DNA from: Stentor roeselii
Taxonomy: Eukaryota; Ciliophora; Heterotrichea; Heterotrichida; Stentoridae
Direction: 5' to 3'
Length of the DNA stretch: 22,950 nt
Assembly: GCA_006503475.1 (NCBI GenBank)
Contig: RSEH01000408.1
Coordinates: forward strand, 1 to 22,950
Positions 1 to 22,063 of this stretch are shown in pieces; the first letter of the stretch is position 1; each line of letters opens with the position of its first letter. Both the position numbers and the translations under genes were made by a program. Under the pieces are notes generated by a model, which saw only the letters and a program-made list of their open reading frames with translations, had not been told where the DNA came from and searched no databases.

Positions 1-80
1 CCCTACCGCCCTACCACCCTAACACCCTACCACCCTAACACCCTAACACCCTAACACCCTAACACCCTAACACCCTAGCA
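1..80. repeat. Telomeric repeat tract, ten CCCTAACA-type units
   Basis: Ten consecutive 8-base units run from the first base. Six are exact CCCTAACA (units 3 and 5-9). Units 1, 2 and 4 read CCCTACCG or CCCTACCA, and unit 10, at the junction with unique sequence, reads CCCTAGCA. This is the C-rich strand of a TGTTAGGG telomere, which I know from the heterotrich ciliates Stentor and Blepharisma. It marks the left end as a chromosome end. The variants in the outermost units could be telomerase slips or sequencing errors. Confidence 0.93.
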
Positions 81-1495: not shown

Positions 1496-1777
1496 ATGAG
1501 TTGCCAAATAAAAGACTGCAAGCAAGATATAATATTTGAATGTTTTTCTTGCAATCCTTGTCTATTATTTTGCTTCGATCATGGCAAAAATCACTTAAAG
1601 AATCCAGAACACGAGGTACTATTTATAGCTCCAGAAAAAAAACGGGGGATTATTAGCAGATGTCTGAAAGTTTTAGTGAAAAATAGTATAAAGAAAATAA
1701 TTGAAAACTCTATGAGCATAATACTCGAAATTAATAAAACTACTAACAGGGTAATCTCTAAAGAAAATGAAAAATAA
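1496..1777 (+). CDS. B-box-like zinc-finger N-terminal segment of gene 1
   Basis: The 93-residue ORF starts at an ATG preceded by an in-frame TAA (1487-1489). Residues 3-39 hold a compact Cys/His set: C3, C8, C16, C19, C26, H29, H33 and H39, spaced like a cross-brace B-box zinc finger. Such fingers usually mediate protein-protein contacts in TRIM-type and many ciliate proteins. A helical segment follows (about residues 48-90). Gene 2 has the same domain and start sequence (MSC), and there the domain reads on into the coiled coil. Here the frame ends at TAA 1775-1777, overlapping the next ORF by 11 bases in a different frame. So this was almost certainly the N-terminus of the following protein, separated by a frameshift near 1750. 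It may survive as a short independent protein. Confidence 0.72.
   Translation: MSCQIKDCKQDIIFECFSCNPCLLFCFDHGKNHLKNPEHEVLFIAPEKKRGIISRCLKVLVKNSIKKIIENSMSIILEINKTTNRVISKENEK
1748..1777 (+). other. Frame break between B-box and coiled-coil/GTPase ORF
   Basis: Against gene 2 (around 10301-10335), gene 1 lacks about five bases here: gene 2 has ATCCAATCTCT where gene 1 has ATCTCT. The deletion lies between two ATC direct repeats, a typical slippage product, and puts the B-box and downstream ORF in different frames. The upstream frame ends AAA TAA T, which resembles the +1 frameshift sites of Euplotes. A +1 shift there would rejoin the ORFs. The deletion is the simpler reading. Confidence 0.6.
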
Positions 1778-4700
1778 TATTTCTTGCATACACCAATTCA
1801 AACCTTTAAAGTTTGATAAACTTAGATTTTCCTTTATTATAAATCACTCAAAATATTTAGAAAAAGAAATTATATACTTGTCTGAAAAAGAAAATATTAG
1901 TTTAATAAAAGATGAACTTGATGAAAAAACTGAATGTTTAAAGGCCAAGATAAATGAAATGGAAGATCTAAAAGCTCTCAATTATCAATTAGAAAAGGAT
2001 TTAATCGAAATCAAACAAAGCTATAAAAATCTTTCAGAAAAGTATGATATGAAAACTGTTGAATTTCTTGAAATTCAACAAAATCTCAAAGTCGAAAATA
2101 ATAACCTCACCAAAATTAAAAATGAGTTTGAAGGACTTACTTATGAAATATTTAAAGACTATCCCTTATTAACTAAGTTAGAAATGACTGGAATGAATAA
2201 TGAGGCTATAATTGTCTATCAAAAGATGATCGAAAGTATTATTATTCAAATTGATGAAAAAGATAAAATTATCAATAAGTATCAAATGGCTTATGAAAAT
2301 CTTGACAATAAATTCAAAGAAAAAATCAAAGAATTATCAATTTTTAGAGTTATAATCGCTGAATACAATAAAACCAATAGAACTTTAATCAATAAATATA
2401 ATGAGAACTTAGAACGATTAAAGATGATAACATCACCTGATCCTGATATTGGAAGACTTTCATCCACATATAAAGATATAACAATAGGTGCTATTCGTCC
2501 AAATCAGCCTTTGGGTCATTTTGATTATAGCATCCTGCTTATAGGTGCAAGTGGAAAAGGTATGTCGACTTTTGTAAACACTTTTATTAACATTCTACTT
2601 GGAAACAATTTGGAAAATCTAATTGCTATTATTCCTTGCAAAAATTTTCCAATCGTTGATCCTAGGTTTGATGATGGAATTGAAGAAAAAACCAAAGAAT
2701 CTGAAAAAAAATATCAAACCAAAAATGCTCACTTTTACAAAATAAACACTCCAGCTACACAAAACAAAACTATTTTAATAGTAGACACTCCTCGTCTTTT
2801 TTGGATGAATGAAAAGAAAAATGATGATTATAATGTTGAAGTCATCATAAATGCTGCAAAAAGGGTTGGAGGCTTCAATGCGATCTTTTATATTGAAAAG
2901 TCAACCACTAATAGACTCTGTCCCATTACTGAATATAATATTTCGAGAATCTCTAAAATCTTCAAAAAAGATTTTAAAAACAATTTAATAGGTGTATTTA
3001 CCTTTTACCAAGGCGATTTGATGTTTGATGATAAATGGCTCCCATTTAAAATTCAACATAAAATTAAAATGAATAACAATTTTTTTGCATATTATAAAGC
3101 CTATTTAAAGAAACCTAAAAAGTTAAATAAAATGATTAGTAAATGGGAAAAAGTAAAAAAGAAGTGCAAGGAACTTTTAAGTAAACTTTTTACAATGAGC
3201 AAACAATCAGCAACACAAATTAATTTAATAATCGAAAATAATAATTTTTTTAAGGAAAAAGTAGCTAAATTTCAAATGATTATTAGAAAACAGCTTTTAT
3301 ATGAAAATGCTTTGAAAATTTCAACTTATACTTTTAAAAATGAACTGATTAAAATTTTGAAGACCGGTTCGCATCACTTAAACTGTATTAAGCATAATAC
3401 ATTATGCCAAGAAGATGCTTTTGAATTTAATGAAAATAATGGAACTGATTATTATAGTAATTTTTCTTGCATAGACAGTCATTCAGGTAGATGCACCACT
3501 TGTGGATGCAAATCACTGAATCATGCTATTATAAAAACTAATCCATATAAATCATTGGATGAAATAAATAATGTACTAGCAGGAAGTAATATAGATTCAT
3601 ACATAACTGTGGATTCAATGATACAGCAACTTGCACTAAAGCAACATAAAATTTTATTAAAGTTGATATTCAGAACCCTACAGAAAGATGCGTTTTATAA
3701 TTATAAAGTTTCTGATTATCTTAGAAAATCAGAAATATTTATTAAAAAATCGATGAAAAATGAAATAGACCATGAAATTTTAATGAATTTTGCGGGAAAA
3801 TTAAAAATTTATCAAGATTACTATAAAAAATATAAGGAAATAGAAAATGAAATTGAAAACATTAATAGTTATAATCAGAGTTATCAAACTATTATAGAGA
3901 AGTATAAAAGCTTAGAATATGAATCTACTGATGAAGACATTGAAACTATGATTGAGCATCAAGAAATAACAATAGGAGCTGTTCGTCCAAATCAGCCTTT
4001 GGGTCATTTTGATTATAGCATCCTGCTTATAGGTGCAAGTGGAGACGGTAAGTCAACTTTTGTAAACACTTTTTTTAACATTCTACTTGGAAACGATTTG
4101 GAAAATTTAATTGCTATTATTCCTTGCAAAAATTATCCAATCGTTGATCCTCGGTTTGATGATGGAATTGAAGAAAAAACCAAAGAATCTGAAGACCAAT
4201 ATCAAACCAAAAATGCTCACTTTTACAAAATAAACACACCAGCTACACAAAACAAAACTATTTTAATAGTAGATACTCCTGGGATAAAATTATATACTGG
4301 ATTAAGTAAAGATAACATCAATATAGAAATAATTTTAAAAGCTGCAAAAAGAGTTAGATACTTAAATGCAATTTTAGTCGTACAAAATTCAAGTTTTAGT
4401 AAATTGAACCCTTTTATTGAATATAATCTTTATAGAATCACTAAACTAATTCCAAAAGATTTTGAAACAAGAGTTTTTGTTGCATCAACCTTTTACGATA
4501 AATTATATTTATTTGAAGATCAATGGATTCCATTTCCAATTCAAAGAAAATTGAAAATGGGAAATACTGCATTTTCATTTCCCAAGGCTCAAAAAATGAT
4601 GACTCAAGATAAAGATAATATATTTGATTGGGAAAATTCCAAAAAAAAAATCAATAAATTTTTATCCATACTGTTTACATTGAGCAAACAGCCAACAACG

Positions 4701-5288
4701 CAATACAATTTTTTATTAGACATGCATCATTTATATATGAAAAATATGGCTAAACTCAAAGTGATACCTAAGAGTATCAATAAGCTCAATTATATATTGG
4801 AATACATAAATAATGAATCTTATACTGAAACTTTCAAATGGATGAAAACTTACTCTATTAATGAAATATGTATTAAGGAGAAAACAATATTCAAAGAAAA
4901 TTATCCTCTCAATCAAGATAAGTTTATTTTAAGTCATTTTTTTGAAGGTTGTGATTTCATGCAAAAATGTGTAGATAAATGCAAAGTATGCGGAGGTCAA
5001 TTACGAGAGCATTTTTTTATATTTAAAAAACAAAATCATTCAGGAATAGACTTAGATCAGATGATACAGCACTTTGAATTAGATAAAAGTAGAAATATTA
5101 TAGGTTTACTTAATGCAGAAAAAGATATAAACAGTTTTTTACCAAACTATACATTTTCAAATTATCTTCTAAAAACAATGGAATACATTAAATACTGCAT
5201 TGATAAAAAATCCAAATTGAAGCATAAAGAAGAATTAAAATTATATGAAGAAATATTAAAAAATATGAGAGAAAGTGATAGTCCATAA
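1767..5288 (+). CDS. Coiled-coil protein with tandem GTPase and Cys/His modules (gene 1)
   Basis: The ORF encodes 1173 residues with no internal stop. Residues about 30-225 form a Glu/Lys-rich coiled coil. GTPase domain A starts near residue 237: its P-loop is GASGKGMST (260-268), with Met266 replacing the essential lysine, and its Walker B region is DTPR (340-343) instead of DTPG. Metal module A is intact: C540, H543, C547, C568, C576, C579, C581, H586. A helical tail follows. GTPase B has an intact GASGDGKST (756-764) and DTPG (836-839). Metal module B is degraded: E1038, F1042 and G1077 replace a His and two Cys. The G-domain resembles AIG1/septin-type GTPases, and the GTPase plus CxxCGC-H layout recalls a broad fungal/animal P-loop family known to me. 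Binding and hydrolysis of GTP is inferred for domain B only. The ATG at 1767 is the first in frame, but the ancestral start was probably 1496. The gene may be a decaying or neofunctionalised copy. Confidence 0.82.
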   Translation: MKNNISCIHQFKPLKFDKLRFSFIINHSKYLEKEIIYLSEKENISLIKDELDEKTECLKAKINEMEDLKALNYQLEKDLIEIKQSYKNLSEKYDMKTVEFLEIQQNLKVENNNLTKIKNEFEGLTYEIFKDYPLLTKLEMTGMNNEAIIVYQKMIESIIIQIDEKDKIINKYQMAYENLDNKFKEKIKELSIFRVIIAEYNKTNRTLINKYNENLERLKMITSPDPDIGRLSSTYKDITIGAIRPNQPLGHFDYSILLIGASGKGMSTFVNTFINILLGNNLENLIAIIPCKNFPIVDPRFDDGIEEKTKESEKKYQTKNAHFYKINTPATQNKTILIVDTPRLFWMNEKKNDDYNVEVIINAAKRVGGFNAIFYIEKSTTNRLCPITEYNISRISKIFKKDFKNNLIGVFTFYQGDLMFDDKWLPFKIQHKIKMNNNFFAYYKAYLKKPKKLNKMISKWEKVKKKCKELLSKLFTMSKQSATQINLIIENNNFFKEKVAKFQMIIRKQLLYENALKISTYTFKNELIKILKTGSHHLNCIKHNTLCQEDAFEFNENNGTDYYSNFSCIDSHSGRCTTCGCKSLNHAIIKTNPYKSLDEINNVLAGSNIDSYITVDSMIQQLALKQHKILLKLIFRTLQKDAFYNYKVSDYLRKSEIFIKKSMKNEIDHEILMNFAGKLKIYQDYYKKYKEIENEIENINSYNQSYQTIIEKYKSLEYESTDEDIETMIEHQEITIGAVRPNQPLGHFDYSILLIGASGDGKSTFVNTFFNILLGNDLENLIAIIPCKNYPIVDPRFDDGIEEKTKESEDQYQTKNAHFYKINTPATQNKTILIVDTPGIKLYTGLSKDNINIEIILKAAKRVRYLNAILVVQNSSFSKLNPFIEYNLYRITKLIPKDFETRVFVASTFYDKLYLFEDQWIPFPIQRKLKMGNTAFSFPKAQKMMTQDKDNIFDWENSKKKINKFLSILFTLSKQPTTQYNFLLDMHHLYMKNMAKLKVIPKSINKLNYILEYINNESYTETFKWMKTYSINEICIKEKTIFKENYPLNQDKFILSHFFEGCDFMQKCVDKCKVCGGQLREHFFIFKKQNHSGIDLDQMIQHFELDKSRNIIGLLNAEKDINSFLPNYTFSNYLLKTMEYIKYCIDKKSKLKHKEELKLYEEILKNMRESDSP
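2477..2793 (+). repeat. Near-identical duplicated tract, copy A (front of GTPase A)
   Basis: This tract, from the ITIG motif through the Walker B aspartate, aligns without gaps to 3966-4282. I count about 17 differences by eye over roughly 317 positions. Immediately downstream the two domains fall to roughly half-identical protein sequence. Two of the differences create the Met266 and Arg343 lesions. Confidence 0.85.
3966..4282 (+). repeat. Near-identical duplicated tract, copy B (front of GTPase B)
   Basis: Partner of 2477-2793 at an offset of 1489 bp. This copy keeps the canonical P-loop lysine and the DTPG glycine. The abrupt loss of similarity after the DTP codons suggests a conversion tract rather than a uniformly young duplication. 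Confidence 0.85.
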
Positions 5289-10045: not shown

Positions 10046-12847
10046 ATGAGTTGCAGCACAGAAGACTGCAAGGAAGACATAGTATTTCAATGCTCTACTT
10101 GCAATTCTTGCTTATTATTTTGCTTTGGTCACGGCCAAAGCCATTACAAGAGCCTAGATCATGAAATTATATTTATCGCTCCCGAAAAGAGAAGAACTAT
10201 AATTTCCAAATGCCTTCAAATCTTAGTAAAAAATTGCGTGAAGGACTTAAATGAATAATCTATGGATATCGTACTTGAAATACATAAAACTTCACAGAGG
10301 GTCATCCAATCTCTGAACCAAATGAGAAATAATATTACTAGAGTACATGACTTCCAACCTTTGAAGTTTGATAAGCGTCGATATGATTTTGTGATGTGGT
10401 AATTACAATTCTTAGAAAAAGAAATGATCTATAATTCCAACGATGAAAAAATGAATTTTATCAGAGATGAACTCGACGAAAAAAATGAAATTATAAATTC
10501 CAAGATGAGAGAAATCGAGAATCTCAATAATCAACTTTTTGAAAGGAACAAAGCTTTAATGAAAACTAGAGAAGATTTTGAGAGTCTTATGGATCAATTT
10601 GATCTAAAAATTCATGAATTAGATGTAAAAAATCAAGACTTAGATAAAAAAAGAAGTGAAATAGAAAATCTTAACAGAAAATTGTTCGAGTGTAACAAAT
10701 CAATAATCGAAGTTAATGAAAACCTCAAACGTTTTTCAGAAAAATATGATTTGAAAATACTTGAACTTGAAGAGAAATCAGTATGTTTAAATAATAAGAT
10801 GATTGAAATAGAGGGCCTTAATAAACAAATTTCTGAGAGGGATAAATCTTTAAATGAAATAAAAGAGAACTTCAAAAGTCTTTCAGAGACACACAATACA
10901 AAGACAATTGAAATAGAGGGCCTCAAAAAACAAATTTCTGAGAGAGATAAATCTTTAAATGAAATAAAATCTAATTTCAAAAGTCTTTCAGAGACACACA
11001 ATGCAAAGACCAAAGAATTACTCGAAGTTCAAAAAAATATTAATTTTAAAAATAATGATCTTACAAGGATTCAAAGCCTTTTTGATAGTTTAAAGAGTGA
11101 AATTTTAAAGGACAGTTCTTTTTTCATGAAGAAACAACAAATTGATAATGAAATCATGAATATGTATCAAAATATTATCAAAAATATAAAGGCTCTTATT
11201 GAAGAAAAAGAAAAGACTTCAAATCAAAATCAAACAAATATTGAAAATCTTAATGAAAAATTAAAAACTAAATCTAATGACTTGTCAAAACTTGAGAAAA
11301 ATTATTCAGCTCTTAATTCTAAATATAATGAAGTTAATATAATAAATCAAACCTTAAATAATAAAAAGAAAGAATCTACTGAAAGAATGAAGATAACAAA
11401 ATTACCAATACTAAAAATTGGAAGAAACCCAAGTGCATATCAAGACATAACAATAGGAGCAGTTCATCCGAATCAACCTATAGGCCATTTTGATTATAGC
11501 ATACTAGTTGTAGGTGGATCAGGGAATGGGAAATCTACTTTAATAAATACTCTATTCAATATTCTACTCAAAAACACCTTAGAAACCCTAGTTCCAATAA
11601 TTCCATGCAAACATTATCCAGTAATCGATCCAAGGTTCAATGACGGGCTTCAAGAAAAAATCACTGCAGGCCCAGATACATCTTGGAACAAATTTGCTCA
11701 TTTTTACAAAATAACCACACCAACTACACAAAATAAAACTATTTTAATGATAGATACTCCTGGACTGGGAATACCAGATATAAATATTGAATCTCGAAAT
11801 ATTGAAATCATCATAAATGCTGCCAGAAGAGTGGGCAATCTCAATGCAATTTTAATTGTAGAAAAATCATCAACAAATAGACTGAACCCTATAATTGAGC
11901 ACGTTCTAAATCAGATTAATAATATTTTTAATAAAGATTTTGAAAGAAATTTTATTTTTGCATTTACCTATTATCAAGAAAACTATGGATTTAATGATAA
12001 CTGGTTTTCACATCCAATTCAACATAAAATGTTTTTTGAAAATAGGTGGTTTTCGATACCTAAACCTGAATTATTTGAACCTAAAAGAATGAAAGGAATT
12101 ATTAAATTTAGGGAAAAAAGCAAAAAACAATCTAACAAATTTTTAGCCCAACTTTTGAAAATGAATAAACAATCAACAGCTTGACTTAATTTGAAATATG
12201 AGCAGCTTAAATGTGTAAAGAAAAAAATAGCTAAGTTCAAAATGAGTGTTGAGAAAAAAGTTTTTTATAAAAATTTATTATCATCGCAAACTAATTAACT
12301 TAAGAATGAAATTAGTAATTTGGTGAAAGATGATTACTACAATTTAATTTGTATCAAGCATCAGACTGTATGCCAAGAAGATTGTGGATTAGAACTTTCC
12401 GAATCTCATGGAACTGATTTTTTCAGTCATTTTTTTTGGAGAGACAGTTGTTCTGGTAGATGTAAAGTTTGTGGATGCATATCGCTGAGTCATGCTAATA
12501 TGAAGATAAAACCAAGGAAATTAATCTATGAAATTATTAAATTATATACAGGAATTGATATATATTCAGCGATATCTAATGATAATATGATCCAGCAACT
12601 TGAAGAAAAACACAATAAATTATTTGCAGGCATACTGAATGAAGAAAAGAAAGTTGAATTTATGTTAGAAAAATATTCAATGTCTAATTATCTTCCTAGT
12701 GCAATAAAAAATATACAAAAATGTATGAGAAATGAAAAAGATCGTGGGAAATTAATGAAGTATACAGAAGAATTGAGAAGTTATCAAGAAATATATCAAA
12801 ATCAAAAGATCATCAGAGATTATGATTATTATAATAATTTTAAATAG
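10046..12847 (+). pseudogene. B-box/coiled-coil/GTPase/Cys-His gene with four in-frame stops (gene 2)
   Basis: One continuous frame of 934 codons from ATG 10046 (in-frame TAA at 10037) to TAG 12845 covers the full family architecture. It has a B-box-like finger (residues 3-39), a long coiled coil with 49- and 35-residue repeats, a GTPase with an intact GGSGNGKST (P-loop from base 11513) and DTPG, and a complete metal module CxxHxxxCxxxC...CxxCGCxxxxH. Four stops interrupt it: TAA 10256, TAA 10400, TGA 12182 and TAA 12296. No frameshift is evident. The longest uninterrupted part, ATG 10424 to 12184, encodes 586 residues (coiled coil plus GTPase). The catalytic motifs and frame are well preserved, so inactivation is recent, or the 586-residue product is used, or stops are read through. 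Standard pseudogenisation is the default view. Confidence 0.8.
10511..11014 (+). repeat. Heptad-multiple coiled-coil repeats in gene 2 (49, 49, 35, 35 residues)
   Basis: Four consecutive protein repeats each begin EIE(N/G)L. Units at 10511-10657 and 10658-10804 are 49 residues. Units at 10805-10909 and 10910-11014 are 35 residues and nearly identical in DNA, giving a 105-bp tandem duplication. 49 and 35 are seven and five heptads, so the long units contain an extra two heptads. Gene 1 has a single such unit, so the rod has been lengthened in gene 2. Confidence 0.88.
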
Positions 12848-13044: not shown

Positions 13045-14360
13045 CCGAAGTGAAAGCTTATTTAGGCAATTTCGATTATAGCTTCCTTTTTATAGGTGCG
13101 AATGGATTGGTAAATCGAGTTTTGCAAACACTTTTATTAACATATTACTTGAAAATACTTTGGAAAATATTATTTCTGTTACTACTGCAGATATTATCCC
13201 ATCATTAATCCTCGATTCGACGATGGGATTCAAGAAGAAAAATGTGTATAAAGGAACCAAGCATGCTCACTTTTACAAAATAAATACTGCATCTACTGAA
13301 CACAAAAATATTCTAATTATAGACACTTCTGGATTAATAGATATTGATGATAATATAAATGTAATCATAAATGCTATCAGAAGAGTTAGCCACTTGAATG
13401 CGGTAGTTTTTGTTCAGCTACGAATCTGCTGAATCCTATAGTTGAAAATTATCTTTGTACAATAGTTCGAATGATTCCAAAACAATAAGAATTAAAATTT
13501 ATCCGTGCATTTACCTTTTTCCTTGGTGATATCCTTTTCGAAGATAATTGGTTCCTTTCAATTACAGCACAAACTTAAAATTAAAATCTTGCATTCTGTT
13601 ATTCAAATTCTGAAATTTGTAAACCAAAGATAAAGAAAAGAAATATATATTATTGGGAAAGAAGTATAAATCAAATTAAAAAATTTATGCTCAAGCTTTT
13701 TACGATGAGCAAGGTTGAAACACACCATAAATTAAATTTCAAACAATATAATAATATCATGAAAAAAATAACAAATTTCAATTAATAATTGAAAACATAG
13801 AAACATGTAAAAAAGCATTAAGTTCGTTAACTCTTTGACCAAAAGTAGAATTCAATAGCTATGTGAAAACTGATTACCATAGTACAGTTTGCATTGATCA
13901 CAAAACTTTATGCCATGAAGATTGTGCTTTAAATTTAACTGAATTCAGGAATAAGACTTTTTTGACAATTGTTTTTGCATGGACAGAAATACAGGGATTT
14001 GCAGAATATGCGGTTGTCCATCACAGCAGCATCATCATACGAAGAAAAAACCTTGTAAATCATTAGATGAAATAAGTAATTTAATAGAATCCCTTTACAT
14101 TAACCCGAACTAAATCAATGATCAGATGATTATACAGCTTCAAGTCAAGCAACTTGAAATAATTTCAAGTCTTATTAATGCCTAAGCAGATCTCAATAGT
14201 ATTTCACCGATATATAAAATTTCTGACTATCTTCTAAAGACAGTAGAAAAAATTGAGCAGGCGATTAAGAAAGAAACTGATCCTTCCATTGATGAAACTC
14301 ATAGATAAATTTAAATATTATCAAGAATTGCATCGAAAAATGAACTATACTGCACGTTAA
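13045..14360 (+). pseudogene. GTPase/Cys-His module pseudogene, copy 3
   Basis: The copy starts at the G-domain boundary (GNFDYSFLFIGANG) without a B-box or coiled coil. A small deletion inside the P-loop shifts the frame: the GKSS continuation is in another frame from 13111. An ORF at 13160-13432 carries HAHFYKIN and IIDTSG, the latter degenerate for DTPG. Further frame changes and stops follow (TAA near 13487). The metal module survives in two frames: CIDHKTLCHEDC at 13890-13930, then C-x5-7-CRICGC-x4-H at 13975-14035 after a frameshift. The tail ends at a TAA near 14360. Its closest relatives are genes 1 and 2 (subfamily A). Clearly inactive. Confidence 0.85.
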
Positions 14361-15064: not shown

Positions 15065-15599
15065 ATGCAATATGATAATAATATCTTAAAGATTAAACAA
15101 TTATTTCCAACAAAACCTTATAAGTCTATAAATATGAATTGCTTTAAATGCAATAATCCTGGTACTGCCCAATGTATGAATTGTCCTTTCTATACACTTT
15201 TATGTCCTGATCACATGATTACTCACATAAGCGTAGATGGGCATACACTAGGAAAGATTGATTATCCTATGATTGAAAAATTAAATAGAGGCTACGTCAA
15301 AAATGAAAAAAAAAAGGTAATTTCAAAAATTTACAAGAAAACTGAATTAATTGTTTCTTCAATCATAAATGAATCACAAAAATTGATCGAAAATCTAAAA
15401 ATTATAAACAAGAATGTAAATTCATTAGATAAATTCATTTCAGTAGAGGTTGATTATAACAGATTTACTGAAATTATACAACAAATAAACAGAAGTGAAA
15501 AGACTGAGTATTGCATTAAGACTTTCGGTTGCAGGAAGGACTTAGATAAAGTATTTTCTGAACTTTTGTTCACGAAAGATGGAAAATATGCATTTCTAT

Positions 15600-15614
15600 G
15601 TATTTGATATTTAG
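15600..15614 (+). other. Candidate 15-base intron GTATTTGATATTTAG
   Basis: It starts GTA, ends TAG, is 15 bases long and contains the in-frame TGA that would otherwise end the B-box ORF. Stentor introns are known to be mostly 15 bases. It is directly followed by a second 15-base GTA...TAG sequence at 15615-15629, so the precise splice choice is ambiguous. Confidence 0.6.
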
Positions 15615-15920: not shown

Positions 15921-16329
15921 GTAATTAGATTTAGATGATTCTAATATAAAAAATCCTTGGAAATAGCGAAAGTTAACACATAATTTTAACAGGGTTACAA
16001 AATTAAAAACAGAAAATAAGCATTTTTCAAAATCTACTTTTTTTACAATTGATCTACGATTTTAATAAAGGATACAAAATTTTGTAACAAAATAATTTTG
16101 TATGAACGGTAATAATGTGAAGAAATTAACTTAATTAAAGTATATTTTCAGTTAAGAGTTAAATATTTTTATAACAGTTTAAGATAGTAATATTTTTGAG
16201 TTCATTAATTTTCTAGATCTCTTTAAAATTACATATTGAACTATTTTCTTTTACTAAATCATTTATTCAAAACATACAAAGGTCATATTATACCTTTTCT
16301 GTCATCATTTGAGTAATTTGATCAAATTT
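15921..16329. other. Short intergenic stretch
   Basis: About 400 bp of AT-rich sequence between the B-box gene and pseudogene 4. No coding or repeat signal is evident. Confidence 0.5.
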
Positions 16330-17500
16330 ACCCTAAAGAGCCATATGATTAGATGTTTTATTTCTAGGTGCGGAAGGTAACGGACAGTTTATATTATCAA
16401 ATACTTTAATGAATATGATTATAAATAAAGATCCAGGAAATTTAATACCAATAATAAAGACTAGATACTATTATAAGGCTCCTTTTGAATATCAATATGA
16501 TATAAAAGAAATAACTGGAAATTCAGAAACGATAAAGATACAAAAGGCTCTTTTCTACCATATAAGAGATCAATTAACTAATAATAAAGCAATTCTTTGA
16601 TTTAATTTCCTAGAGTATAAAACATTTCACGATTATGATGGATACTTAATATAGTTTTTGAAGCTGTTAAAGCATTTAAGTCATTAAATGCTATTATTAT
16701 TATTGAAAAATCTAGCGAAAAAGACTATATTTAAATTTAAAATTTACACTAAATATATTATCTAAACTTATTCCTGAAGAAATTGATAATCAAATTCTTT
16801 TATTATTTGTTTTTATTTAGGTTTGATCTCATAAAAAGTTGAATAGATGCTATATCCGATCAGATAAAAGTGAAATTTAACAATAGTGCTTTATTATAAT
16901 CAGGAGCAATATAATAATAGACCAAAAAGATTTATGAGAAAAAGAGAAAATTGGGAAAGAATCAGAAGAAGGATCGAAAAGCTCATTCAAGAATTATAAA
17001 AAAATTTCAACTCAATCATCCACATATTTATATAATCAACTAAAAATGATATTTCTGAATATCGAACTTTGAAAGAAACTTATGAAAATGTTTAGAACTA
17101 TTTAAGAATAAATCGTGCGAATTAATAAGTGTTATTGAATGGGTACAAACAAATACTAACAATAATTTATGCAGATATCTTCATAGTTTTTGTAAATTTG
17201 GTACTAGTTAATAATTCGAACAAAATAATCAAAATTGTTGCAGGATTACGTCTGTATGAGTAGTAAAAATATGTGTAAAGTATGTTGATGCAGATCAGAA
17301 ACTCCTATCTTCACTGATAAAATTTCAACAGTAAATTAAATATTAAAATAATACTAAATTATGTATAAGGCTGTAAAAAAAAGGAAGTATTGGATTATAT
17401 AGAGAAAAATGAATTATTATTGATTATGATAATTCGAAAATTAGAGAAATTATATTTAAGTTCATGTTTTAGTATTTCAGGATACTTGGATTTATTTTTA
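16330..17500 (+). pseudogene. GTPase/Cys-His module pseudogene, copy 4
   Basis: The copy starts at the G-domain boundary (KEPYD). The P-loop reads GAEGNGQF, having lost the Lys-Ser pair. The 63-codon ORF 16409-16600 aligns with copy 5 (KDPGNLIPIIKT). Further pieces lie in several frames: FEAVKAFKSLNAIIIIEKSS near 16660 and LNILSKLIPEEIDNQ near 16745. The metal module is CMSSKNMCKVC followed by TGA in place of the Gly of CGC, then C, near 17250-17295. The C-terminal part is very close in DNA to copy 6 (19740-20280). Many stops and frameshifts: inactive. With copies 5 and 6 it forms subfamily B. Confidence 0.82.
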
Positions 17501-17755
17501 TTATAGCGGAAAAATATATCTAAAATACTTTAAAAGATATAAAATAATTTTTTATCTAGAGTTTTATAGATAGCTCGTTCAGAATTGAAGGTTTTTAGAT
17601 TTTTAGAATGTTTTTTTAATCTTAAGAATTTAAAACCTTAGCAGAAAAAATATAGACACTTCATCAGCATTTTTAATATAAATGTCTGTTAGAGCCTGCT
17701 AAGTTTAATAACTTTATAATAATTAAAATTAAATTTGATAATTAGAGAAACCTAG
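17501..17755. other. Intergenic gap upstream of copy 5
   Basis: AT-rich, with no coding signal. An in-frame TAG at 17753-17755 closes the frame just before the copy 5 G-domain. No B-box or coiled-coil remnant precedes that copy. Confidence 0.45.
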
Positions 17756-19104
17756 TCTGAAAGAGCCATCAAGTCAAATGAACCCTTGGAGCCTTTCGAT
17801 TACAGTATCCTTATTGTCGGTGCTAGTGGAAATGGGAAATCAACAATTATAAATACTTTTGCTAATATGAATTTAAACAGAAAACCAGGTAATCTTATTC
17901 CTATAATTGCTACAGATTATTATCCCATCGTACCTCAAGAATATCAAGACGATATTATAGAAAGAAATGATTCAGAAAAAGGAGTCAGCCAAACTGAGAA
18001 CGTTCATTATTATCATATGAGAAGTTCATTAACTCATTATAAAACTATTCTGTTTGTCGATACTCCTGGCTTTGGTTCAACAGGAGGGGTTGAGAATGAT
18101 GAGAATGTTTTAAAGATTCTCGATGGTGCACGAAAAGTGAAATTTTTCAATGCTATATTAATAGTCGAAAAAAGCCGTACTAACAGATTGAATCCTTGTT
18201 TAGAATATGTAATCCAAAGACTTAAAGAGATTATTCCTCGTGACTTTGAAAATAGATGTGTATAGGGATTCAGCTTTTATAATGGCGTGACTTATTTCCA
18301 TACAGAGCGGCTTCCTTTTCCAATTATATATACATTCAAATCCAATAACAATGCATTTAGCTATAGTGAGCAAGAATATATTGAGAATCAAAGAATTAGA
18401 AAAAATGCTGAAGAAAATTGGGAAAAGGGGAAAAGAAGATTCGAAAAATTCTTCCTTAAATTGCAGGAATTCGGAAGAGTTTCAACTATTCAATACACTT
18501 AACTATTAGAGTCATATAAGAGGGTTTTCTAAACATAAATGGAATTCAAAATATATTCTATTTTATAGATTTTTGTCTTAATAATCAATCAGGATTGGTT
18601 AAAGTAACTGATTTAATAAATACAGAAACAAGTATATGCGTATGTGAAAATCACAAAATTATTTGTCATTATAATTGCAATTTGAATCCAGATATTAATA
18701 TGGCAACAAACGTTTTAGGTTTTTGCTTATGCATGAATACTCAAAATTTTTGCAAAGTATGCGGATGCCCAACATCTAAACACATTCCACTTGTTAAAAA
18801 TTCCAAAATAGAAATCGAAAAATTACTTAGATATGGAATTTCGATAAATATTGATGAATTGAATAAAGCCAAAGTGTTGAATGCACTTAGGAATAAACAA
18901 AATGATATAATTTCAGAGTTGTTTATAATTAGTGAATCAATTTTAAATATATCTCCAAATGTTAATTCGTTCAGTTATCAAAATAGAGATATGGAAGTAA
19001 ATCGATATTCTGAAGAAATCAATTATAATCTAACAGATGGAATAAAGGCTTGTTTTTTCGGATTGTTTTATCGAAGAATACTAGAAATACTCTCAAAATT
19101 TTAG
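17756..19104 (+). pseudogene. GTPase/Cys-His module, copy 5 (interrupted)
   Basis: The G-domain opens EPLEPFDYSILIVGASGNGK with a complete P-loop (GASGNGKST). It retains DTPGFG and VEKSRTNRLNP, so the catalytic residues are intact. There is no ATG ahead of the domain; the frame is open only from a TAG at 17753. TAG 18263 and TAA 18500 interrupt the same frame. A frame change near 18510-18590 precedes the C-terminal ORF (18595-19104, no proper start), which has a full metal module: CENHKIICHYNC, then C-x-C-x6-CKVCGC-x4-H. Helical tail ends at TAG/TAA near 19104. This is the best-preserved member of subfamily B, yet it is broken in at least three places and lacks the N-terminal domains. Confidence 0.82.
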
Positions 19105-19659
19105 GATAAGTAAAGATTTAATATTATAACAAAAGTTCATTAGTAAATCTCAAAGTTATTCGATAATTTCATAAAGTTTATAATAAATTTTCAATATTTA
19201 ACAATTTCAGTCATGATTAATCCTTAAGTTTTAAATCTCTAATGCCTGTAAAATTTTAACTAAATATATTAACTTTAAGTTTTTATAATTGCATTAAATA
19301 GTTAATAATAAGTAATTTTAGCTCATATTCTTAATTTTATTGTTCATTGAAATAATCCTGCTGATATTACTTTAGTCTTAAATCAAATGATTATTTATAG
19401 ACTAAAATAATTTTATTGCTTAAATTTCTCATGATAATTTTATTCTTTTTAAATCTATGAGATTTAAAAATAGTATTTGTATAAATCAATTCATCAAAAG
19501 TAGAGTGATGCATACCATCGTCAAATATAAGATCTAATACTATATTTTCTTTCAACAAATAGATCTAATTCAAATTTCCAATACTGAATACCAATTATGT
19601 TTGTGATTAAGTTCAAGACACTAATTGTAGCATCACAAATTTAAATATTATATTTTATG
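19105..19659. other. Intergenic AT-rich stretch
   Basis: About 550 bp where the G-domain of copy 6 would be expected if that copy were full length. I see no P-loop or DTPG remnant here. The domain was therefore lost by truncation, or has decayed beyond recognition by eye. Confidence 0.5.
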
Positions 19660-20337
19660 AATGCATATTTTAATTATAGTCAAGAGCAATATAATAATTA
19701 TCCCAAAAAATTAAAGAGATAAACAAAATATTGGAAAAGAAACAGAATAAAAATCGAAAATTTCATGCGAGAATTACAAGGCATGAATTCTATTTCAACT
19801 CAATCATTCAAAAATCTACTAATTTTCCATAAAGAACTAAAAAATAATATTTCTGAATATCAAACTTTGAAAGAAAACTTAAAAATATTAAAAAAACTAT
19901 TTAAGAATAAATCCTGTGTATTATTTAGTGTTATTAAATGGAAAAAAACAAATACTCACAAACTAATATGCAAAACTCATTACAGTATTTGTTACTTTAG
20001 TGATAATTTATGTCTCGAAAAAAATAATGAAAATTCCTTGCAAGATTATGTCTGCATGAGTAGTACAAATATGTGTAAAGTTTGTGGATGCACCTCAGAA
20101 ACTCATATCTTAGCTGATGAAATTCCAACTGTAGAATCTAGATCTCTTGCAGAATATTTGAAAAGATATTCAATCAATGCTGAAGCATTCAAGGAAAAGG
20201 AAGTTTTGGATATCATGAAGAAAAATGAATTATATTTGATTATGAAATTTCAAGAATATAGATCACGTTTTAGTATTCCAACATGTTTACAAAATGAGAA
20301 GGATTTTTATCTTGATAATAAATTAAGTGACACTTAG
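19660..20337 (+). pseudogene. 5'-truncated Cys/His-module copy 6
   Basis: Homology to copy 4 begins in the helical segment after the G-domain (YSQEQYNN at about 19676-19700). No GTPase domain precedes it. A stop near 19725 separates this from a clean 190-residue ORF (ATG 19765 to TAG 20337). The ORF holds a helical stretch, then CKTHYSICYF, then C-x7-CKVCGC-x4-H, then a tail. The second-half cysteines are intact; the first half has a shifted Cys. The ORF has no internal stop, so a short metal-binding protein could be made, but truncation suggests a relic. Confidence 0.72.
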
Positions 20338-22063
20338 AGTAAGTAGAATTCAAAATAGATTACTTAATTATTACTAATAATATTAGTTTATGATCAAAAA
20401 TGAATAAATTATTTAAGCCTTTAGATTTTATTAATCAATAATTACTATGTGTTGAAATTTTACTGGATAACTAATTTGCTTATTAAATTTTAATTTAATT
20501 ATTTTTTAGATAAAAATACCTAAGAGTCTATATATTGTTATCCAATCCTTAATTTATCACAAAAATTATGAATTAATACATAAATGATTCCTAAATATAA
20601 TAAATCAATATTATTATATTTGCTTAACAGATTACAATTTTAAGATAATAAAGATCATAAATTCAAGCCAATTAAATTAAGTTTTCCACCGCTCTAAGAA
20701 TTTGATTTCATTTCAAATATCTAGAAAGTCCTTAAAAATTCAATTCAAAATATATTTTAAAAGGTTCTTAAATTTGTAGGCAAAAAATTGTAGGTCAATT
20801 ATAAAAAAGATAGATTTTGTAAAATTATATAAAAATTTAGTTCTTAAATTTGTAGACAAAAAATTGTAGGTCAATTATAAAAAAGATAGATTTTGTAAAA
20901 TTATATAAAAATTTACAAATAATTGTAGATCAATTACAAAAAATTTTGACTCTAAATCATAATTTAAAAAAAATTACAGTTAGCTCATTGAAATCTGTTT
21001 TCATGTAAAAATTAAATATTTTTAAGAGCTTGAAGCTAATATATATTCATGTTATAAAAATTACAAAATAATTTTGTGATCTTTATACTGGATTAAATAT
21101 GCATAGTAATTGATTTTTTTTTCTTTAAGTACAATTGACCAAATATTTTAGAAATTATTCAATATATGGGATTACAGCTGATTTCTTTGGTTAATATAAA
21201 AATTTATTAATGCAAGATAAGTTATAATTTTTTTTCATATCCTTGCTAATTTTTGAATCGTTAACTTTTGTTTTAATGAGAAATTTATGATTTTTCGATT
21301 AAAAGCATTAGCTAAAATTATCTGATTGTTTATCATAAACTGGGTATTTTAAAAGTATTCATTACTTGAATGAATTTTATTAAAAGATATAATTTCCCTG
21401 TTTTTCTATAATAAATCTTTAATCAATCATTTAGTATAATTTTTATACGTATTAGAGACAACTAGATTATATTTTCTTTTATATTTATTTGAGACTTTAA
21501 TATCATGATCTAAGCATCCTTTTTCCTTGAGGTTTATTATATGAATATATAAGCACTGCTAAATTTATTTACTTTTAAAGTTTATATTGTTATAAGTTAG
21601 TGGGCTTAGTAAAATATTCAATGAAGAAAATTATTAGAGAAATTATAAAACCTTTCCTTTTTTTAGTGTTAAATAAAGTCATCGTATATTGGTATTATAG
21701 ACTTAAATGAATATCATGAAAGTTTACAAATCAAGTATTATTTAATCATATCTGCAATATTTTCCATGTTGTCTCGATATTTAAGTGTTTTTACCTAAAA
21801 ATCAATATTTTCAACCAAAACCATTATTGCATCTAATTCGAAAATCAACACTATATAAAAGAAACTATTCATTAGAAATATATAAAGTATTTTCTACTAC
21901 TATTAAATATATTATATATAGAAAGTTTTCAATTACCTAGAATATGAATCTTGTATCGATTATCTTATAATTCAAGAGTTTATTGATATCCAAAACGATT
22001 TATTATATATATGAATTGAAATATTTACTTATTGAGTTCAATTGTCTATATTTTATTATATAA
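20338..22063. other. 1.7-kb intergenic stretch
   Basis: Very AT-rich, with no ORF of note on either strand. It contains the 76-bp tandem repeat at 20765-20916. An in-frame TAA at 22061-22063 directly precedes the next gene. Nothing else recognisable. Confidence 0.55.
20765..20945 (+). repeat. 76-bp tandem repeat with TGTAG core (two and a partial unit)
   Basis: Unit 1 (20765-20840) and unit 2 (20841-20916) differ at about two positions: TTTGTAGGC against TTTGTAGAC, and the last base. A degenerate partial third unit (AATTGTAGATCAATTA) follows to about 20945. Each unit begins TTCTTAAATTTGTAG and contains AAAATTGTAGGT, the same core as the elements at 1055 and 9271. The near-identity indicates a recent duplication. 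Confidence 0.85.

Follow-up and report, generated by a model that had tools for sequence, protein, structure and literature searches.

Within the vertebrate IRG family of GTPases, the P-loop Lys is replaced by Met in the GMS proteins, and tandem genes join two GTPase units (PMC1297648); tandem IRG proteins are also described in PMC3810784 and PMC6420625. In zebrafish irgg-irgq1, a canonical unit is combined with a quasi-GTPase whose role is perhaps regulatory, and in a tandem pair of Fugu the first 290 residues are near-identical and the sequences behind them have diverged (PMC1297648). GMS proteins negatively regulate GKS proteins, and the interaction of Irgm3 is GDP-dependent and takes place via the catalytic face (PMC3042988); for each of these papers the account given here follows the excerpts that were accessible. 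Here, we describe a fused double-GTPase open reading frame (ORF), P0001, located at positions 1767..5288 on the plus strand of a contig of the ciliate Stentor roeselii (RSEH01000408.1, our C358), which was analysed over its whole length of 22,950 nucleotides and is referred to as the window. Searches of the genome covered 522 contigs (44.39 Mb).

The open frame, the motifs of its two modules (A and B), a tract of near-identity that they have in common and a switch of topology behind this tract are observed directly. The best, though tentative, reading is that P0001 is a young fusion in which the Met-P-loop half, module A, serves as a fixed cis partner of module B. A working cis-regulated pair and a decaying chimera are about equally likely.

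Layout of the open reading frame and its GTPase motifs

P0001 runs without interruption for 1173 codons from ATG to TAA, which confirms the open frame and the two GTPase modules recorded in an initial annotation made from the letters alone. Its parts follow each other on the plus strand as a coil-like N-terminus, module A (GTPase and Cys/His region), a linker, and module B (GTPase and Cys/His region). The coil-like region (1767..2469) aligns by tblastn with the stretch that precedes the GTPase in a neighbouring copy of the family, copy 2, and its Pfam matches are weak, below the cut-off and to coil-like families only. The G1 motif of module A, GASGKGMS, lies at 2544-2567 with the M266 codon at 2562-2564, R343 is encoded at 2793..2795, and the Cys/His region follows at 3384..3530. 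In the A/B alignment the linker (3867..3957) shows partial likeness to the stretch preceding module A. Module B has the G1 motif GASGDGKS, with K762 at 4050-4052, followed by G839 (4281..4283) and a Cys/His region at 4869..5018. There is no in-frame TGA in P0001. Among 30 ORFs of at least 300 codons in 20 loci, taken from both strands with overlapping loci unmerged, TAA is the stop in 17, TAG in 11 and TGA in 2; one of these two TGA directly precedes another stop, so that TGA is taken as a putative stop here.

The modules differ at two core motifs: at G1, module A has M266 where module B has K762, and at G3, DTPR (R343) in A stands against DTPG (G839) in B. Both the G1 Lys and DTPG are present in 9/9 of the other aligned members (copy 2, the paralog C334 and seven paralogs of C74), and therefore the two losses, which the initial annotation had recorded, are real and specific to module A. 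Having Met for the P-loop Lys, the feature of the GMS group, sets A apart from B and the nine other members, all of which have Lys, and by the loss of its G1 Lys and G3 Gly residues module A would be classed as a pseudo-GTPase. Two places before M266 lies K264; that it stands in for the lost P-loop Lys is only a thought. The motifs of module B had been called perfect, which is true of G1 and G3, the only motifs checked; module B does deviate in having SSFSK and TFYDK where most members have SSTNR and TFYxG, segments whose role is not established here. A separate 388-codon ORF (L056, C334:7026-8192) begins with a Cys/His stretch and has a single GTPase-like part, in which by eye the P-loop looks intact and DTYY replaces DTPG, so that G3 loss is also encountered in a single-module relative.

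In Pfam, MMR_HSR1 (PF01926, cut-off 21.9 bits) is matched by module B (26.2 bits) and C334 (23.6 bits), with no match in module A and 20.6 bits for the whole of P0001. For Septin (PF00735, cut-off 26.2 bits) module B reaches 21.1 bits and A has no match, and the whole of P0001 scores 30.1 bits over two stretches. The AIG1/GIMAP scores (PF04548, cut-off 27 bits) all fall below the cut-off, at 23.6 bits for A, 18.6 for B and 24.7 for C334. At a threshold of E<=0.1, the IRG family model (IIGP, PF05049) was matched by neither of the two modules nor by C334; 2/11 family members matched it at this threshold (best 7.2e-4).

Gene conversion and the origin of the two modules

The first half of the GTPase is near-identical in the two modules. 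Between 2470..2792 in module A and 3958..4280 in module B, 18/323 positions differ, and the flanks on both sides are strongly diverged. Synonymous divergence (dS, NG86 method) between A and B is 0.095 within the tract, 1.2 before it and 0.78 past it, and the fourfold degenerate sites differ at 3/37 within the tract and at 8/21 past it. Topologies were compared for four sequences, A, B, copy 2 and C334, by the approximately unbiased (AU) test. Within the tract A groups with B, the alternatives having p-AU values of 1.4e-9 and 8e-4 on DNA and 0.006 and 0.009 on protein. Past the tract the favoured groupings are A+copy 2 and B+C334; here, the A+B topology has p-AU values of 0.015 (DNA) and 0.042 (protein), and the topology joining B with copy 2 has values of 0.015 (DNA) and 0.005 (protein). 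In a genome search the B tract matched five places, its own and those of the A tract (94%), copy 2 (75%), copy 3 (74%) and C334 (73%), so that no third near-identical donor was seen.

This pattern points firmly to a recent gene conversion between modules A and B, extending from G1 to the DTP of G3, and to the descent of the two modules from two paralog lineages. The tract ends just before the R343 codon, and the loss of the G3 Gly therefore lies outside it. The Lys-to-Met change lies within the tract and would most simply have arisen on A after the conversion. An apparent clustering of tract differences at the P-loop (4/18) was not used, as the region had been picked after the data were seen; in 20000 shuffles, a maximum of four differences in 12 bases occurred in 4169, and the P-loop count was reached in 695.

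Two lineages and a linker that partly resembles the stretch preceding module A fit a joining by unequal exchange between neighbouring genes. In the proposed mechanism, two paralogs within a telomere-side GTPase cluster would have been joined head to tail, one of the A type, with copy 2 as its closest relative, and one of the B type, nearer to C334. Either before or after the joining, gene conversion would have overwritten the first half of a GTPase module with the corresponding part of the other. The first end of the contig carries a telomere-type array, (CCCTAACA)n, at 1..77 (Tandem Repeats Finder, period 8, 9.6 copies), the same telomere repeat, (CCCTAACA)n, that is reported for Blepharisma in the accessible part of PMC9942806.

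No further double GTPases were found in the genome searches, which give a partial view; P0001 matched at least 28 places and C334 at least 42, several being pieces of the same copies. Three large neighbouring ORFs of C334 and C74 were considered as candidates and set aside, with one GTPase each in the stretches read and with N-terminal domains that show no match to the GTPase profile (hhalign probability 0.6%). These ORFs (L003, L004 and L057) have in common an N-terminal domain with a terminal Cys/His motif, followed by a coil and a GTPase.

A working pair or a decaying chimera

Under the reading of a working pair, module A (Met266, Arg343) would no longer switch with GTP in the usual way yet would keep its fold, and would be a fixed cis partner for module B; the latter, with G1 and G3 kept, would bind GTP. 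Such an arrangement would be an intramolecular version of the action of GMS on GKS proteins, and of the one that Bekpen et al. put forward for those tandem IRG genes in which one half is a quasi-GTPase. In favour of this reading are the open frame, the tract, the switch of topology, a neutral simulation, dN/dS (the ratio of nonsynonymous to synonymous rates) below 1 and the IRG precedents. The larger claim, that a ciliate independently evolved a cis-regulated GMS-GKS GTPase whose pseudo-GTPase half carries the Lys-to-Met change of the IRGM regulators and whose halves were homogenised over the GTP-binding part within a fast-changing telomere-side family, is considered rather unlikely. Alternatively, and as a reading that we would likewise entertain without committing to it, P0001 may be a young chimera in decay: near-telomere recombination would have joined two paralogs into a product without selected function, and its still-open frame would be a late survivor in a cluster of emerging pseudogenes.

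Past the tract, codon models were fitted to eight sequences (A, B, copy 2, C334 and four of C74, leaving out C74_75, C74_87 and C74_105) on an assumed background tree. The dN/dS estimates are 0.20 for A, 0.40 for B, 0.28 for copy 2 and 0.12 elsewhere, and the comparison with dN/dS=1 gives twice the log-likelihood difference (2dlnL) as 16.1 for A, 4.3 for B and 7.7 for copy 2; equality of A and B (2dlnL 2.2) and of A and the rest (2.1) is not rejected. These values below 1 speak against decay. With five sequences the estimates are 0.21 (A), 0.45 (B), 0.33 (copy 2) and 0.11 (elsewhere). By NG86, the divergence between A and B behind the tract had looked near-neutral (dN of 0.62 and dS of 0.78, with 154/125/153 differences at the three codon positions). 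This comparison was set aside as biased in such AT-rich DNA, since dN/dS under F3x4 codon models is 0.28 across A, B and copy 2 and, by branch, 0.20 for A and 0.40 for B. Neutral dN/dS in both modules, along with the absence of a transcript, had been named by the initial annotation as a sign of a young pseudogene; neutral dN/dS in both was not found with eight sequences, and with five B could not be distinguished from neutrality.

In neutral simulations of the whole ORF, the mean number of stops was 12.0, 4.7 and 1.8 at 0.0475, 0.0175 and 0.0065 substitutions per site. The frame stayed open in 0/1000 and 11/1000 runs at the two longer times, or in 0 and 14 if TGA is not a stop, which counts against decay, as does the retention of G1 and G3 in module B. 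The tract holds 6 synonymous differences (95% range 2.2 to 13.1), which places 0.0175 per lineage near the lower end. At this value A or B alone remained open in 133 to 214 of 1000 runs, so the argument depends on the whole ORF, which was itself chosen partly for its length. Survival of the frame since the conversion is thus unlikely under neutrality, and may largely reflect time before the fusion. A decay that began only recently would be compatible with both the open frame and dN/dS below 1.

Several observations weigh against a working pair, and most of them are what a decaying chimera would show. At the shortest time, 164/1000 neutral runs stayed open (241 if TGA is not a stop). The branches on which dN/dS was estimated extend to pre-fusion time, and copy 2, which carries stops, also has a value below 1 (0.28), so that the values mostly record history before decay. 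With five sequences B is inseparable from 1 (2dlnL 2.9), and within the tract the estimates for A (0.68) and B (0.18) cannot be told apart from 1, either singly or jointly (2dlnL 4.4, two parameters). Of 55 family-invariant residues past the tract, defined on six intact paralogs, A retains 31, B 32 and the stop-bearing copy 2 31, so that invariant residues have been lost to an equal degree in the fused modules and in a broken copy; C74_87 retains 46 and C74_105 27, and when intact paralogs are left out one at a time each retains 55/57 to 55/69. Five broken copies neighbour P0001 in the window, and module A has lost its G1 and G3 residues.

A B-box-like ORF of 93 codons (1496..1777, plus strand, by translation) precedes P0001 and is cut off from it by a difference in frame, in contrast to copy 2, where all parts share one frame. 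It has 59% identity to the start of copy 2 and no Pfam match, and a genome search with its sequence (1496-1774) at E<=0.001 gave 73 matches, a large family. In C273, matches to the B-box and to the start of P0001 lie in register by their coordinates, within an open frame given as 237 codons. The offset could reflect a genuine break of the frame, a tiny intron, a translational frame shift or a base-count error; translation from the ATG at 1767 is independent of the B-box. A mini-intron is not favoured: the sole GT..AG of 12-29 bases with its GT within 1690-1779 measures 13 bases, and introns of Blepharisma are mostly of 15 and 16 bases according to the accessible part of PMC9942806.

The Cys/His regions also weigh against intact function, and both modules have lost putative metal positions. 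Across the six paralogs that are intact, namely C334 and five of C74, 12 Cys/His positions are invariant, a pattern that suggests metal binding. Module A retains 8/12, with Q548, a gap, F566 and I588 at the others, and module B 5/12, with E1038, F1042, K1043, Y1046, F1064, G1077 and F1084 at the others. The full complement is absent likewise from copy 2 (8/12) and from C74_87 (10/12), which has one in-frame stop and, like module B, Phe at the third position; C74_105 lacks the entire region. Gln at the fourth and Phe at the sixth position are common to A and copy 2, and part of the change in A therefore predates the fusion.

These counts bear on the proposal of the initial annotation that the halves form an internal pseudo-dimer with one function kept by each, which in its strict form means complete metal binding in A and complete GTPase function in B. 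That a GTPase without its G1 and G3 residues is fused to one that keeps both is a fair description, but the halves are not cleanly complementary: the full metal-ligand set ascribed to A lacks four of the family positions, and the three losses ascribed to B were placed correctly (E1038, F1042 and G1077) but are seven. Such a strict division of labour is improbable; A does keep more metal positions than B and has the lower dN/dS branch value (0.20 vs 0.40, with equality not rejected), but its metal set is incomplete and B deviates from the family in other GTPase segments. An assembly artefact, through misjoined paralog reads or a wrong base count where the B-box ORF meets P0001, would have the 323-bp near-repeat within the ORF and runs of A at that junction in its favour, and a base-count error there stays compatible with the data, but the frame is open across the joint and the tract copies differ at 18 places, and are thus not one sequence used twice, so that we give this explanation little credence.

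Should the fused protein be produced and have a function, the pairing of a Met-P-loop GTPase with a normal sister would have originated a second time, outside vertebrates and within a single chain. This would show that such a pair can be built by fusion together with gene conversion in a telomere-side cluster. If P0001 is decaying, it would offer a clear snapshot of GTPase family turnover at a chromosome end.

Neighbouring copies and comparison with known GTPases

The further copies in the window all lie on the plus strand. Copy 2 (10046..12847) consists of a B-box, a coil and one GTPase with a Cys/His module, and retains GGSGNGKS and DTPG despite four in-frame stops (10256, 10400, 12182 and 12296; three TAA and one TGA). 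A 105-base unit repeated twice (92% match) lies within the coil region of copy 2, at 10802-11010. Copy 3 (13062..14290) is a GTPase module broken across several frames, copy 4 (16289..17229) is broken as well, copy 5 (17717..19020) retains G1 and G3 with the frame broken downstream, and copy 6 (19648..20304) is a remnant of the C-terminal part. In addition, a 180-codon ORF at 15065-15607 has a B-box-like start (Cys/His pattern by eye), two copies of a 76-base unit matching at 98% occur at 20764-20915, and an ORF open at the contig end (22064-22948) weakly resembles von Willebrand A domains (VWA_4 at 14.4 bits, below the cut-off of 27).

A literature search found nothing joining Stentor, GTPase and B-box, and nothing joining GIMAP, dimerization, AIG1, septin and G domain. 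The best family matches, in Pfam and among solved structures (septins first), are to GTPases of the septin, AIG1 and MMR_HSR1 type and lie mostly over the P-loop; unlike septins and AIG1 proteins, the single modules stay below the respective Pfam cut-offs. The pseudo-GTPase domains of p190RhoGAP resemble module A in lying within a longer protein (accessible part of PMC5593906), a likeness drawn by description only.

The closest comparison is with the tandem IRG proteins (mouse Irgb2-b1 and Irgb5-b4, irgg-irgq1, and the Fugu pair), which, as far as the accessible excerpts describe them, resemble P0001 in that two GTPase units of the same family are predicted to form one product; the quasi-GTPase unit of irgg-irgq1 and the near-identical front parts and diverged rear parts of the Fugu units are further likenesses. 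The units of the mouse tandems are joined by splicing and those of P0001 in one exon-like ORF, and each unit of P0001 is followed by a Cys/His region. A, B and C334 are without an IIGP match, and as the modules are not IRG by Pfam, this is a likeness and not membership. With the GMS proteins Irgm1, Irgm2 and Irgm3, module A shares a P-loop Lys replaced by Met and a partner of GKS type that is its sister (accessible parts of PMC3042988 and PMC1297648). Unlike GMS and GKS proteins, which are separate, module A, a putative regulator of B, is fused to it and also lacks the Gly of DTPG.

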